From positions 1-24,396 of IMG/VR virus record IMGVR_UViG_3300007735_000514: DNA of 24,396 bases, one strand, 5' to 3'. Under the pieces are notes generated by a model, which did not search any database, was not told the origin of the DNA, and worked only from the letters and a program-made list of their open reading frames with translations. Within the stretch, counting starts at the first letter, position 1. Each line of letters starts with the position of its first letter. Origin of the DNA: a virus. Below are positions 9,663 through 16,076 of this stretch, one piece after another. The position numbers were made by a program, and so were the translations under genes.

Positions 9663-10286
9663 TTATCCTTGAGCAAATTTCTTAATGGCTGATCGTTGCT
9701 TGCTATCTAACTGTGACCAGAGAGCTGTTTTCCAGTCTGCATCTAGCTCCAGACTATTGATGTACGCGACTGCTTCTCCGACTCGATCCTTATGAATCAT
9801 CATGATGATGTCGGCTGCATAACTCTTAATCTCGTTCTGAGATTGTTCGTCTAGCGTATCGAATACCGACTTGGTAATAGGTTTAGCAGAACGAGGTTCA
9901 TCAGCACCAGTCGTAGCGTCTAGGGCATCGTGTTCACAGATAGCTAGAGCCATGACCAGCAGATAGCGAGTGATGTACGTTATCGATGCTCCGAGGTTCT
10001 GTACTGGATGACAGCCTTTGAGTTCAGCACTAGCCATAGGACAAGTGAACTTGGCTATTCCACCTTTCTCAACGTCGATAACCTGCATAGTGGCTAACGT
10101 ATCAGTAAACTCTAGCGTATGTGACAAGCCGATTTCAGCAAAGATATTGTTTACAGTAGGCAAGAAGTCAGATAACTCAAAGTATTTATATCCAGCAAAT
10201 TTATTGTGACCAGATTTCTTTAGCTCGACGTTTTGCAACTTTACACGCGCTAACTGTAGTTTCTGGTAAACATTCATCGAGGTCAT
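9663..10286 (-). CDS. ERF-superfamily single-strand annealing recombinase
   Basis: The 207-residue protein matches the ERF family of phage annealing proteins. It has an N-terminal helix (VYQKLQLARVKLQNVELKKS), the conserved KFAGYKYFELSDFLPTVNNI segment (about 29-48), and NLGASITYITRYLLVMALAI (about 97-116), which contains the family core, followed by acidic EHDALDATT. The C-terminal 80 residues are a helical accessory part. ERF proteins anneal complementary single strands in phage recombination and genome circularisation. ATG at 10286 has AGGA eight nt upstream. The adjacent SSB-like gene is a common partner. Confidence 0.88.
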   Translation of the reverse strand: MTSMNVYQKLQLARVKLQNVELKKSGHNKFAGYKYFELSDFLPTVNNIFAEIGLSHTLEFTDTLATMQVIDVEKGGIAKFTCPMASAELKGCHPVQNLGASITYITRYLLVMALAICEHDALDATTGADEPRSAKPITKSVFDTLDEQSQNEIKSYAADIIMMIHKDRVGEAVAYINSLELDADWKTALWSQLDSKQRSAIKKFAQG

Positions 10287-11252: not shown

Positions 11253-11408
11253 ATGGTTAAGAAAAAGACGTTACCAAAACAGCAACCTAAGCAAGAAACA
11301 CCACGATTTTTACCTAAAGTCTCACCTAGAGGGCAACCTATTGGAAACCGAACATTCAAAACCCTTACGTCGAAAGTCCGGCACACTTGGAACGGGAACG
11401 ATCTATAA
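11253..11408 (+). CDS. Small basic ORF, doubtful or frameshifted
   Basis: A 51-residue frame starts MVKKKTLPKQQPKQ and is rich in Lys, Pro and Thr, but its ribosome site is weak. The other frame, covering the zinc-ribbon protein from 11341, stays open through the whole of this stretch without any ATG. Either this is a leader gene overlapping a TTG-started zinc-ribbon gene, or an indel separates the two halves of one 80-90-residue protein. Confidence 0.35.
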   Translation: MVKKKTLPKQQPKQETPRFLPKVSPRGQPIGNRTFKTLTSKVRHTWNGNDL

Positions 11409-11514
11409 CTTTAGTACCCGTCTATGCCCTGTTTGCAAAAAGACAAGATCAATAGCGCAATTCAAGGATAGCGAGGTCTGTAGGACTTGCATCATTAGAA
11501 ACGTAAAGGTATAG
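11341..11514 (+). CDS. Small zinc-ribbon protein, TTG start
   Basis: The 57-residue product contains CPVC (29-32) and CRTC (47-50) separated by 14 residues, a zinc-ribbon pattern, with basic residues around it. No ATG exists in this frame. TTG at 11341 has AGAGGG seven nt upstream and is the best start. Small zinc ribbons in phage early regions often bind nucleic acid or the host polymerase. It ends just before the next small gene. Confidence 0.5.
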   Translation: METEHSKPLRRKSGTLGTGTIYNFSTRLCPVCKKTRSIAQFKDSEVCRTCIIRNVKV

Positions 11515-11637: not shown

Positions 11638-12275
11638 GTGACTTTCGGCGGGATACCGCTTCCTTATCCGATACCGACGCAATGGCTTATTTAAAGCTGC
11701 TGTGGATATATTACGACACAGAATTGCCGTTACCAGCAGACGCTAAGTTACTGGCTTTTAAGATCGGCTCAAACGTCGATACAGTTCAATTATTGCTCGA
11801 CGCTTTCTTTACGTTAGACGGAAATGTTTACCGTCAGAAACGCTGTGATACTGAATTATTGGAATACAAAAACAAAGGTCAAAAGGCTAGAGAATCTGCG
11901 AACGCACGATGGAATAATGCGAACGCAATGCGAACGCATAGCGATAGCAATGCGAAAGCAACGAAAATCGATGCTAACCATAAACCAATAACCAATAACC
12001 AAGTTAATAAAGAATATATTGATCGATTTGATACTTTTTGGAAACACTATCCTCGTAAGGTATCAAAGCCTAATGCTCTCAAGGCTTGGCTAAAACTTAA
12101 ACCTGATGATGACCTAACGAAAAAAATAATCTCAGCAGTTTCTCAGCAGAATCTTTCCGCTAAAGAAGAACAATTCATTCCTCATCCAGCGTCTTGGCTT
12201 AACGCTCGGCGTTGGGAAGATGAGGTCAAGGTTGCCAGTACAACGGCATTTCCTTTCGGAAGGAGAATTCTATGA
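11613..12275 (+). CDS. DUF1376 (YdaU-type) phage replication protein
   Basis: The 220-residue protein starts MHYYKHHIGDFRRDTASLSD, then AYLKLLWIYYDTELPLP, the hallmark of DUF1376 proteins found in phage replication modules. A Lys/Asn-rich linker (about 85-135) leads to a C-terminal domain with FDTFWKHYPRKVSKPNALKAW and FIPHPASWLNARRWEDE, also seen in replication-initiation proteins. It probably helps initiate replication at an origin and load the downstream helicase. GAGAGG five nt before the ATG supports the start. The ATGA overlap with the CHC2 gene indicates coupling. Confidence 0.85.
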   Translation: MHYYKHHIGDFRRDTASLSDTDAMAYLKLLWIYYDTELPLPADAKLLAFKIGSNVDTVQLLLDAFFTLDGNVYRQKRCDTELLEYKNKGQKARESANARWNNANAMRTHSDSNAKATKIDANHKPITNNQVNKEYIDRFDTFWKHYPRKVSKPNALKAWLKLKPDDDLTKKIISAVSQQNLSAKEEQFIPHPASWLNARRWEDEVKVASTTAFPFGRRIL

Positions 12276-12688
12276 TTGGCAATTTTCTAAACAAGCTCGA
12301 CAAGGTTCAAGGTAAGCGCGGTCATTGGATAGCTTGTTGTCCAGCGCATGAGGATAAACGTCCATCCTTAGCGATTACCGAAACTGACGATGGCAGGATT
12401 CTGCTGAAGTGCTTTGCTGGATGTTCGGCTTACGAGGTCGTTAGCGCAGTAGGCATGGATTTAACCGATCTGTTTCCTAAAGACCAATCTTTTACACCGC
12501 ATAACGGTAACAAACCTGTCAAGCGTCCTTTTTATGCAACAGACCTAATGAAAATAATCCAATTTGAGGCACTTATTACGTCCATAGTGGCGTTTGATTT
12601 GTCCGAAGGTAGGCAGGTATCAGACACCGATAAAAAACGGCTTAAAACGGCTTTTATACGAATTAACGAAGCGATCGGATATTTATGA
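12272..12688 (+). CDS. CHC2 zinc-finger primase-like protein without a TOPRIM domain
   Basis: Residues 18-70 match a DnaG-type CHC2 zinc finger: HWIACCPAHEDKRPSLAI gives Cys23 and His26, and LLKCFAGCSAYEVVSAVG gives Cys47 and Cys51. The remaining 70 residues are helical, and the protein stops at 138, far short of the TOPRIM catalytic core of a full primase. It could recognise priming sites or act with a host or split primase. It sits between the DUF1376 and helicase genes, confirming a replication role. ATGA overlaps occur at both ends. Confidence 0.8.
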   Translation: MIGNFLNKLDKVQGKRGHWIACCPAHEDKRPSLAITETDDGRILLKCFAGCSAYEVVSAVGMDLTDLFPKDQSFTPHNGNKPVKRPFYATDLMKIIQFEALITSIVAFDLSEGRQVSDTDKKRLKTAFIRINEAIGYL

Positions 12689-12858
12689 CGGAATCGAAGT
12701 TAGTTGAGTTAGGCTTTAGCGAGGTAACACCGGGGTTTTGGGTAGGTAGCGTATTTGCCTTAAATAAACTTTATCAACAAGGGAGACAGGATGAGTCTGG
12801 AGCAACGAGCAGAGCAGCTAGACGAGGCGAGGAGACTGAGGGTTATCAAGTCGGATAG
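12685..12858 (+). CDS. 57-residue small protein upstream of the helicase
   Basis: ATG at 12685 overlaps the CHC2 stop (ATGA), and the frame (MTESKLVELGFSEVTPGFWV...) covers the 100-nt gap before the helicase and then runs 68 nt into it. The N-terminal 35 residues look protein-like; the C-terminal part shares DNA with the helicase start and is probably constrained by it. Unknown function. Confidence 0.45.
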   Translation: MTESKLVELGFSEVTPGFWVGSVFALNKLYQQGRQDESGATSRAARRGEETEGYQVG

Positions 12859-13792
12859 CATTGACGTAGAGAAATATCTTCATGCCAACGATGTAACGCT
12901 AAAGGTAAAACAGGCTAGGGATTTCTTAGATGCAATAAAGGAAAGCTATCTCAGCACTAACAGAGATGCAAAAATACTATTGCCTTGGACTAATACGCAT
13001 AATTCTTTTGCGTTTAGACCGGGAGAAGTGACGGTTTATGCAGGTTCTAACGGTGGTGGAAAGTCGTTATTAACTGGACAAATCGCGCTGCATCTAGTGA
13101 AGCAGGGTCAGAAGGTCTGTATAGCGTCTTTCGAGATGAAGCCACAGAAAACGCTAGAGAGGATGCTGCGGCAGTTTGCAGGTGAGTATGTGGATGATCC
13201 GCTAACGTCAGATCGTGAGGGCTATATCACTAAACTTCTAGGAAGATTAGAGAAATATACGGCTGATTCCTTATATTTATACGACCAGCAGGGAACAACT
13301 AGCCCTGACAAGGTTATAGCAATGTCCAGATATTGCGCGATGGAACTAGGCGTACAGCATATCTTTATCGATTCGCTAATGAAAACGGTAAAGAACGAGG
13401 ATGATTTTAATGGTCAGAAGAACTTTATTGATGAGCTAACAGCATTGGCTCGTGACCATAACGTACACATCCACCTAGTCCACCATATTCGGAAACAGGC
13501 GAGTGATGAGGTAACACCGAACAAGAACGACCTAAAAGGCTCTGGTTCCATTAGCGATCAGGTGGATAACGTCTTTCTTGTGTGGCGCAACAAGAAGAAG
13601 GAAAACCAGCGAAATCGTGGTGAGCAGATAGATGAGAGCCAAGGCGATACGTTCCTAATGAACGAAAAACAAAGAAATGGTGAGGCTCAGGAGTGGTATC
13701 AACTCTGGTATCACGCACCTAGCCAGCAGTTTGTGGAATCGGCAGGATCAAGACCTATGGACTTTGATAACCGTGGTGGGTTTCATGGCTAA
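12791..13792 (+). CDS. DnaB-like replicative helicase (RecA-fold ATPase)
   Basis: The 333-residue protein is a hexameric-type helicase core. It has Walker A GSNGGGKS at 85-92, the SFEM motif with probable catalytic Glu115, Walker B QHIFIDSL with Asp194 and the VHIHLVHHIRK arm near 226-234. A sensor region follows (GSGSISDQVDNVFLVWRN). It lacks the N-terminal domain of DnaB or the primase half of T7 gp4, consistent with a phage helicase using a separate zinc-finger protein. GGGAG five nt before the ATG supports the start. The last 8 nt overlap the Mom-like gene. Confidence 0.9.
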   Translation: MSLEQRAEQLDEARRLRVIKSDSIDVEKYLHANDVTLKVKQARDFLDAIKESYLSTNRDAKILLPWTNTHNSFAFRPGEVTVYAGSNGGGKSLLTGQIALHLVKQGQKVCIASFEMKPQKTLERMLRQFAGEYVDDPLTSDREGYITKLLGRLEKYTADSLYLYDQQGTTSPDKVIAMSRYCAMELGVQHIFIDSLMKTVKNEDDFNGQKNFIDELTALARDHNVHIHLVHHIRKQASDEVTPNKNDLKGSGSISDQVDNVFLVWRNKKKENQRNRGEQIDESQGDTFLMNEKQRNGEAQEWYQLWYHAPSQQFVESAGSRPMDFDNRGGFHG

Positions 13793-14483
13793 TAATTTTA
13801 CTATTCTAAGAATAAAGCCAGAAGAAACTTATCAATGGTTAAAAAAAATACATTATGCCAAAAGGATTCCATCAATTACTTATGCTTTTGGTTTATATGT
13901 TGACGGTTCGCTAGTTGGAATAGTTACTTATGGAACACCATCATCTGCAACTTTAAGAAATGGTATTTGCGGAGAAGAAAATAGCCAATATGTTTTAGAG
14001 TTAAATAGGTTATGTTTTGATAGTTATATAAAAAATGGCGCAAGTTATTTAGTGGCAAATAGTATGAAGCATCTTCCAAAGCCATCAATTATTGTTAGTT
14101 ATGCAGATACTAATCAAGGACATATTGGATACATATATCAAGCCTGTAATTTTGTTTATACAGGATTGTCTGCCAAAAGGACTGATTGGAAAATAAAAGG
14201 AATGGAGCATTTGCATGGGCAAACAATTTCAGACATGAGTAGAAATATAGATAGCAATTTATCAAGAAGTGACTATATGCGGCAAAAATTTGGTGATGAT
14301 TTTTACTTAAAAGATAGACCAAGAAAACATAGGTATATTTACATAACCGGTAGCAAATATCAAAAAGCTAAACTTTTGAAAAATATTAAATATGAAATAC
14401 AAGAATACCCAAAAGGTGATTCAGCAAAATATGAAATAAAAGAAAAAGCATCAAAACAAAATTTGCTAATGTTTTATGAATAA
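13785..14483 (+). CDS. mom: Mom-like DNA adenine modification protein
   Basis: The 232-residue protein resembles the Mom family. Phage Mu Mom converts adenine in DNA to an N6-carbamoylmethyl form and so protects phage DNA from many restriction enzymes. Matching features are GIVTYGTPSSATLRNGICG (about 45-63), ELNRLCFDSY (72-81), IIVSYADTNQGHIGYIYQAC (102-121) and FVYTGLSAKR (123-132), on a GNAT-like fold. ATG at 13785 overlaps the helicase stop; a longer frame from 13677 is helicase shadow. The gene is strikingly AT-rich compared with both neighbours, suggesting acquisition. No Com-like translational activator sits directly upstream, unlike Mu. Confidence 0.85.
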   Translation: MANNFTILRIKPEETYQWLKKIHYAKRIPSITYAFGLYVDGSLVGIVTYGTPSSATLRNGICGEENSQYVLELNRLCFDSYIKNGASYLVANSMKHLPKPSIIVSYADTNQGHIGYIYQACNFVYTGLSAKRTDWKIKGMEHLHGQTISDMSRNIDSNLSRSDYMRQKFGDDFYLKDRPRKHRYIYITGSKYQKAKLLKNIKYEIQEYPKGDSAKYEIKEKASKQNLLMFYE

Positions 14484-14682
14484 CTCTGAGCAAGAACGTC
14501 ATAGATGCGAGGTTAGGCAGGTACTAGCATGGAGAGCAGCAGACAGGGATTCAGCGTTACGTTATCTGAGTGTTGTAAGGCAGAAACGTGGGCATCAAGT
14601 GGCTGACCAGCTAGAGGCTGACTGTAAACAGCAATGGGGTTTAGGGAACCGAGGCAAGAAAGGAGATTGGCGTGGTCTTTAA
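14476..14682 (+). CDS. Small charged protein, unknown
   Basis: The 68-residue product is rich in Arg, Gln and Asp (HRCEVRQVLAWRAADRDSAL) and ends in a basic tail. It overlaps the Mom-like gene by 8 nt and the VRR-NUC gene by 11 nt. Base composition returns to that of the rest of the genome here. No family is recognised. Confidence 0.55.
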   Translation: MNNSEQERHRCEVRQVLAWRAADRDSALRYLSVVRQKRGHQVADQLEADCKQQWGLGNRGKKGDWRGL

Positions 14683-14962
14683 GCGCGTGGACACAAACCA
14701 GACGCAGATAGTCCGAGAACTCCGCAGGTTAGGGATGGAGGTACTACACCTGCATAGCGTTCATCATGGGTGTCCTGATATTTTGGTCGGTTATCGAGGT
14801 AGAAACATTTTGTTAGAAATAAAGAAAGACGAGAAAGCCAAGCTGACAGCGGATCAGGAGGTATGGCACAAGATGTGGCGTGGTCAAGTAGCGGTAGTGA
14901 GTAACCCACAGGCTGCAATTAAGGCTGTAAAACTTGCTTGTAATGAAACTATTGAGGAATGA
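14672..14962 (+). CDS. VRR-NUC domain nuclease
   Basis: The 96-residue protein is a stand-alone VRR-NUC (PD-(D/E)XK) nuclease. GCPDILVGYRGRNILLEIKK carries Asp36 and Glu49-x-Lys51 of the active site, followed by LTADQEVWHKMWRG and a C-terminal hydrophobic strand/helix. Such phage proteins act as structure-specific nucleases, probably Holliday-junction resolvases that clear branched DNA before packaging. GTG at 14672 is the start, with AGGAG six nt upstream. It lies at the end of the replication block. Confidence 0.88.
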   Translation: MVFKRVDTNQTQIVRELRRLGMEVLHLHSVHHGCPDILVGYRGRNILLEIKKDEKAKLTADQEVWHKMWRGQVAVVSNPQAAIKAVKLACNETIEE

Positions 14963-15376: not shown

Positions 15377-15859
15377 TTGAATGACAGGGTAATTCATAGA
15401 AAACAGGGTCACGGCTATGATGAAAAATACTCTGATTGGAGGAGAAGTCGCTACCCAAACATTGTAAAAGCGACAAATCATTATTGTGCTGATGTTGATT
15501 GGGTTGAGTGGCGCAAGGGCAAGCCTGTAGCTGTTATCGAATGTCGCAGAGCCTTATATGGCAAAACTTTAGATGATGCTGTGAATTCAGTTCATCAGCT
15601 AAATAATGGTTTCCAGATAGAACTTCTCGCTACTGTTGCAAAAAATTTAAATGTAGCTGGATACATAGTAGCGATTAGTGACCAAAATCCAGAAGATCGT
15701 GAGAGTTATTCAAAAGCAACATTCCGTGTGATGCAGGTTGTAATTCCAAATCCTTACCCTACTAAATTTGGAACTTTAGTTCCTGAGTTGATAAGAAATT
15801 TAAAGAAAATAGATGATTACGATGAGATAGGTTTTGCTAATTTTTTGTCAAAACTATGA
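15377..15859 (+). CDS. Possible PD-(D/E)XK-fold protein, TTG start
   Basis: The 160-residue frame starts at TTG with GGGGA six nt upstream. The segment YCADVDWVEWRKGKPVAVIECRRA (about 33-56) has the beta-hairpin form of PD-(D/E)XK nucleases: an acidic strand, WRxGKPVAVIE, then Glu-Cys-Arg in place of the usual Glu-x-Lys. If it is a nuclease, the Lys-to-Arg change could alter or abolish activity. The C-terminal half is mixed alpha/beta. Neighbouring recombination genes fit a DNA-processing role, but this is inference. Confidence 0.5.
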   Translation: MNDRVIHRKQGHGYDEKYSDWRRSRYPNIVKATNHYCADVDWVEWRKGKPVAVIECRRALYGKTLDDAVNSVHQLNNGFQIELLATVAKNLNVAGYIVAISDQNPEDRESYSKATFRVMQVVIPNPYPTKFGTLVPELIRNLKKIDDYDEIGFANFLSKL

Positions 15860-15866
15860 GGATGAT

Positions 15867-16076
15867 ATGAACCAGATAGATGATTCCAATTTAGCTCAAT
15901 GCTGTGCTTGTGGGTTTGTGGACTATTGGGATGAGATTCCAAAGGGCAGATGTGTATTCTCAGAGGACTATCTGACAGAATGTCCTGAATGTGGGGATGT
16001 TGATGGATTTGCCGATTACGATCCAGAAAGAGCCAAGCGAATAGATGAAAAAAAGCGAAGCCAAATACCTAGCTAA
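15867..16076 (+). CDS. Small zinc-ribbon protein
   Basis: I place the start at ATG 15867, supported by GAGG upstream, rather than at an upstream ATG at 15834 inside the preceding gene. The 69-residue product has CCACG near residue 12 and CPECG near residue 40, typical zinc-knuckle pairs, and an acidic middle. It overlaps the HNH gene by 32 nt. Function is unknown; nucleic-acid or protein binding is likely. Confidence 0.65.
   Translation: MNQIDDSNLAQCCACGFVDYWDEIPKGRCVFSEDYLTECPECGDVDGFADYDPERAKRIDEKKRSQIPS

Follow-up and report, generated by a model that had tools for sequence, protein, structure and literature searches.

A Mom-family gene in an apparently exchangeable slot between a phage replicative helicase and a DUF7696 gene

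In bacteriophage Mu, mom is expressed through a late switch controlled by Com and Dam: the com gene is located upstream of mom and overlaps it, the promoter is Dam-dependent and has clustered GATC sites upstream of mom, and an RNA structure at the mom start inhibits translation. Mom domains are also present in jumbo phages, fused to nucleases of the REase fold, for which a role in DNA protection was proposed (PMC7824862). A further system relevant to our study comes from cryoconite phages, whose near-identical cores exchange gene variants at fixed positions, most frequently orphan DNA methyltransferases (PMC7468147).

Here we analyse a mom gene from a virus record of 24,396 bases (the whole of which is referred to as the window), derived from an uncultured, probably freshwater phage and encoding, among others, an SU10-type portal, an ERF recombinase and a DnaB-like helicase. 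The gene occupies a slot between this helicase and a small DUF7696 gene (Table 1). As close relatives carry in the same slot nothing or quite different DNA-modifying enzymes, the gene has the appearance of interchangeable armour against restriction by bacteria.

Table 1. Features of the mom locus (positions in the window) and occupants of the helicase|DUF7696 slot in related loci
Feature	Location or number of loci	Strand	Evidence
ERF-family recombinase, might mediate the exchange of cassettes (role inferred)	9663..10286	-	PF04404 3.7e-14
Primase zinc-ribbon-like protein, same operon as mom	12272..12688	+	PHROG 6088 DNA primase 5.8e-17
DnaB-like replicative helicase, slot left border	12791..13792	+	DnaB_C 3e-20; PHROG 239 primase/helicase 7.7e-58
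ATGGCTAA, shared by the helicase stop and the mom start (8-nt overlap); left junction of insertion	13785..13792	+	sequence
mom, Mom-family GNAT-fold DNA-modification enzyme, 232 aa	13785..14483	+	Pfam Mom; PHROG 1384; 8bv8; composition
ATGAATAA, shared by the mom stop and the DUF7696 start (8-nt overlap); right junction of insertion	14476..14483	+	sequence
DUF7696 protein, 68 aa, slot right border; adjoins helicase in mom-less relatives	14476..14682	+	PF24751 1.4e-11; empty sites
Small VRR-type/Holliday-junction nuclease-like gene	14672..14962	+	PHROG 93 endonuclease 6.4e-14; PHROG 5702 Holliday junction resolvase 4e-6
Occupant: C5-cytosine methyltransferase	12, plus 1 paired with endonuclease VII-like HNH (L074)
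Occupant: GNAT	5 (L106, L198, L204, L209, L242)
Occupant: NUMOD4/HNH endonuclease	4
Occupant: N4/N6 methyltransferase	3
Occupant: TET-associated (TAGT-type) glycosyltransferase	L225:4965-6057		PF20691 E 7e-46
Occupant: DpdA/queuine tRNA-ribosyltransferase-like	L228:904-1725		PHROG 887 E 3e-73
Occupant: other DNA methyltransferase	L235		PHROG 757 E 4e-71
Occupant: Mom	L001 only, besides the window

Family and fold of the mom product

A preliminary description of this DNA had assigned the gene to the Mom family on the basis of two segments, SYADTNQGHIGYIYQAC and ELNRLCFDS, both of which are present in the open reading frame, and had proposed a GNAT-like fold. Profile searches bear out the family assignment over the full length: the product matches Pfam Mom (PF25680) at profile positions 2-202 of 202 (E = 4.9e-40; 137.8 bits against a cut-off of 27.1) and PHROG 1384, annotated as 'Mom-like DNA modification protein' (E = 4.2e-54). 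The solved structure of Mu Mom, 8bv8, was found already by sequence (E = 4.2e-8). The fold is likewise confirmed by a predicted structure (AlphaFold2, built with 22 homologues, pLDDT 81), for which 8bv8 was the best Foldseek match (E = 5e-11); a second structural aligner gave Z 19.2 for 8bv8, with rmsd 3.5 over 176 residues, compared to 13.1 for the next GNAT.

Residue S87 aligns with S124 of Mu Mom and is invariant in 22 viral homologues, in Roseobacter phage CRP-902 and in Mu; according to the PDB title of 8bv8, S124A is an inactive mutant. The Mom-specific segments HY..R, E-L-N/T-R and YQA-N-F are also retained in the alignment as far as Mu. The gene is thus a member of the Mom family and, by itself, an ordinary addition to it. 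Residues 3-129 additionally match positions 362-475 of 536 of PHROG 3339, 'homing endonuclease' (E = 7e-9), so some phage proteins seem to combine a Mom-like domain with a nuclease.

Empty and occupied slots behind the helicase

The overlap of the mom start with the helicase stop agrees with the neat operon fit noticed in the preliminary description, which did not contain the second 8-nt overlap, that with the DUF7696 start at the right end. The survey of this slot covered 80 loci with a helicase 74-95% identical to that of the window, together with loci fetched with the helicase of locus L001. None of the 80 former loci contains mom; the majority have the helicase directly abutting DUF7696, usually with an 8-nt overlap. 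Comparison of these loci indicates that mom is an insertion which can be exchanged, the corresponding empty sites being clearly visible, a feature missed in the preliminary description. The downstream nucleases were considered as a restriction partner of mom and rejected, as the VRR-type gene and the genes following it are also present in mom-less relatives. A 160-aa protein encoded at 15377-15859 of the window shows a weak match (E = 0.003) to the N-terminal domain of type I restriction HsdR.

Altogether 116 distinct slots were distinguished, 87 empty and 29 occupied, the latter by at least 8 kinds of cargo, with known DNA-modification genes in 20 of the 29 (Table 1). The inserted modification genes mostly begin with an 8- or 4-nt overlap of the helicase stop, and the 8-nt form is found for DUF7696 itself in 43 empty alleles as well as for several other occupants. 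Profile HMMs for C5 and N4/N6, the two large types of methyltransferase, gave 16 hits among the 6103 ORFs of these loci, all 16 in the slot. HNH genes are scattered across several slots, and the variable slots next to this one are filled mostly by HNH nucleases and by small ORFs of no known function. A DpdA-like gene (PHROG 887) is also found upstream of the helicase in L055, L063, L088 and L095. Since HNH (4 loci) and GNAT (5 loci) genes use the slot and the DpdA-like gene occurs upstream as well, the slot is not exclusive. The GNAT occupant (about 181 aa, e.g. L106:5999-6541) is conserved, has only weak GNAT matches and is possibly another DNA acyltransferase; as a slot-specific gene it was discarded, most of its 53 relatives being located elsewhere in other phages. 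In L225 the TAGT-type glycosyltransferase sits behind a short ORF without known function.

Besides L001, mom directly behind a helicase was found in more distant phages only, outside the exact helicase|DUF7696 arrangement. Two deeply diverged helicase groups, approximately 37-46% identical to the helicases of the window or L001, were examined for the following gene, which turned out again to encode Mom or a C5, N4/N6 or other DNA methyltransferase, with the occupant differing between close relatives within these groups. Two diverged phage groups carry similar proteins behind the helicase (L343:3967-4791 and L428:3903-4718), which are probably PAPS-reductase-like, with one such Pfam match in the scanned set. 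Within the mainly open-access literature covered, our search for this slot returned only the general work on flexible modules, and no description of a single fixed site behind a helicase for chemically different modification enzymes.

Composition, probable exchange and expression of mom

The preliminary description had placed the gene in a sharply AT-rich island, and the composition profile supports this: mom has a GC content of 0.293, and no other 699 bp of the contig are as AT-rich (z = -5.4 relative to 699-bp windows not overlapping mom; mean 0.445, sd 0.028, minimum 0.378); GC3 of mom, 0.176, compares with 0.24-0.52 in the 32 other tabulated genes. What that description missed is that the bias is common in the family. 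Among 84 distinct mom loci of other viral contigs, GC3 of mom is below that of the flanking ORFs in 64 (Wilcoxon p = 3e-9, indicative only, because the loci are not independent), and in 44 no other gene of the locus has a GC3 as low as mom, with about 8.5 expected; the AT bias therefore goes with the gene family. It is not a property of the slot, because the C5 methyltransferases located there have GC of about 0.50. AT-richness is accordingly typical of mom genes and not special to the present phage.

Sequences flanking the slot in the window best match an allele, L046, in which the slot is occupied by a C5 methyltransferase: on the left 21 of 22 bases agree, and 35 of 36 do so on the right. 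In the comparison with L001, mom shows 78% DNA identity with dS of 1.2, and with dN/dS of about 0.12 it is under purifying selection; it is also intact. The helicase, primase and DUF7696 genes, by contrast, are 55-62% identical with mostly saturated dS. The difference suggests that mom moved between the two backbones after their divergence, though stronger conservation of mom could contribute to it. As the flanks match and the phage encodes an ERF recombinase, exchange may have proceeded via homologous recombination or annealing at the conserved helicase end and DUF7696 start. A search of bacterial genomes gave no donor: it returned just 7 mom relatives, every one in a MAG and none more than 50% identical.

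Regarding expression, the gene directly upstream of mom is the helicase and not com, and tblastn with Mu Com across the window found no Com-like gene (best E = 5.7), in agreement with the preliminary description, according to which none was located directly upstream and timing must be controlled differently. With no Com and an 8-nt coupling to the helicase, such a reading of timing would fit the anatomy of the locus. Two small Cys-rich proteins (11341-11514 and 15834-16076) tried as Com candidates gave no Pfam match. Only two GATC sites (13556 and 13746) are present in approximately 385 bp upstream of mom, matches resembling promoters or terminators around mom are no commoner than in shuffled sequence, and a tRNA scan gave nothing useful. 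An RNA hairpin at 13774-13834 closes the mom start (z = -2.1), and of the 27 gene starts compared within the window no other is closed as strongly; the trend is absent in L001 and in 81 mom starts elsewhere, and a conserved Mu-like start hairpin was rejected as a family feature. Among upstream co-oriented neighbours of mom genes (n = 58), more are annotated as replication proteins (helicase, primosomal, initiator) than as any other class.

Interpretation and comparison with described systems

We regard it as likely that mom encodes an anti-restriction, adenine-modifying enzyme, acquired horizontally as exchangeable cargo of the slot and translationally coupled to replication genes. The enzyme would probably put a bulky group on adenines of the phage DNA, which in the Mu enzyme is methylcarbamoyl, judging by the PDB entry name, and this group would block host restriction enzymes. 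Translation of mom would follow from the helicase by the 8-nt stop/start coupling, together with the replication genes and not via the Com/Dam late switch of Mu. The slot itself is unoccupied in the majority of close relatives and contains in the others mostly different, non-homologous DNA-modifying enzymes. Adenine modification and restriction protection are plausible because the protein belongs to the Mom family and is located in a slot where close relatives carry other DNA-modifying enzymes; its chemistry, substrate, target motif and protective effect are predicted by analogy with Mu, and the timing is likewise presumed.

It seems improbable to us that the protein is a Mom homologue whose substrate has changed, one that uses another acyl or carbamoyl donor, another base or an RNA or protein target and acts on host DNA or translation instead of protecting phage DNA. 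Identity to Mu Mom amounts only to about 25% and general GNATs are structurally close, but the catalytic-site serine and the Mom-specific segments are kept as far as Mu, Mu Mom scores far above other GNATs, and the alternative occupants are DNA-modifying enzymes. We give slightly less credit still to the slot being a mere landing place for homing endonucleases, with mom as debris or a hitch-hiker without a role there. Such a view could account for the NUMOD4/HNH genes in the slot of 4 relatives, for the endonuclease VII-like HNH accompanying a C5 methyltransferase in L074 and for HNH genes in neighbouring slots; in the surveyed loci, however, methyltransferases, GNAT and Mom are confined to this one slot while HNH genes turn up in several, HNH genes mostly lack the 4/8-nt overlap common to most modification genes, and mom is intact and under purifying selection.

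The horizontal origin of mom could also be disputed, if its AT-richness had arisen during long residence, from an amino-acid bias or from selection that keeps expression weak. GC1 and GC2 are likewise reduced, and GC3 of mom tracks that of the flanks over the 84 loci (r = 0.67), as in a partly ameliorated or long-resident gene. Nevertheless GC3 falls most (mean -0.10), more than amino-acid composition explains, and the empty sites in close relatives speak against long residence, so we consider this explanation unlikely, albeit less so than the two above. Beyond exchangeable cargo in the present phage, we tentatively suggest, with more doubt than belief, that the site behind the DnaB-like helicase serves as a dedicated plug-in for DNA-modification genes across several deeply diverged aquatic phage lineages: occupants would inherit the 4/8-nt coupling and thereby modification in step with replication, armour would be changed by swapping Mom, C5, N4/N6, glycosyl- and deazaguanine-type genes, and occupants without a name, such as the GNAT of L106 and L198, would be new DNA-base-modifying enzymes.

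Taken as a whole, the preliminary interpretation holds for family, fold, AT-rich island, operon fit and lack of Com, and falls short on exchangeability and on the composition typical of mom genes. The locus provides a simple search rule for new DNA-modifying enzymes, namely to look between this helicase and DUF7696; the slot is a natural experiment in which restriction protection of the phage would be changed and the rest of the genome left untouched; and a Mom enzyme is here linked to replication genes without Com.

Compared with Mu (8bv8, 'methylcarbamoylase mom'; Mup55 of NC_000929), family, fold and serine are common to both proteins, which are about 25% identical. In Mu, com and mom form an overlapping pair, while the window has neither com nor such a pair; Mu mom lies at the end of the late region and that of the window between helicase and DUF7696; GC of Mu mom is not below its own 2.2-kb surroundings, unlike the AT-rich gene described here. 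Com-less Mom-like genes of sequenced phages (Proteus, Listeria, Bacillus Riggi, Roseobacter CRP-902; 286 records) are 37-41% identical over most of the window protein, and CRP-902 has a helicase and a VRR nuclease alongside, whereas the closest relatives of the window mom are in uncultured viral contigs (55-77%), the only group in which a swap slot with empty sites was traced. Unlike the fused Mom domains of jumbo phages (PMC7824862), the window protein has no fused domain, and the nearby VRR-type nuclease is also found in mom-less relatives. As in flexible modules, the flanks of the slot stay constant among close relatives and the cargo between them differs or is missing, but in the cryoconite modules homologous variants are swapped (PMC7468147), while the present slot exchanges non-homologous enzymes of different chemistry, including Mom. 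Mom-like genes are already known from hundreds of phage records and from jumbo phages (PMC7824862); what appears to be new is the slot.
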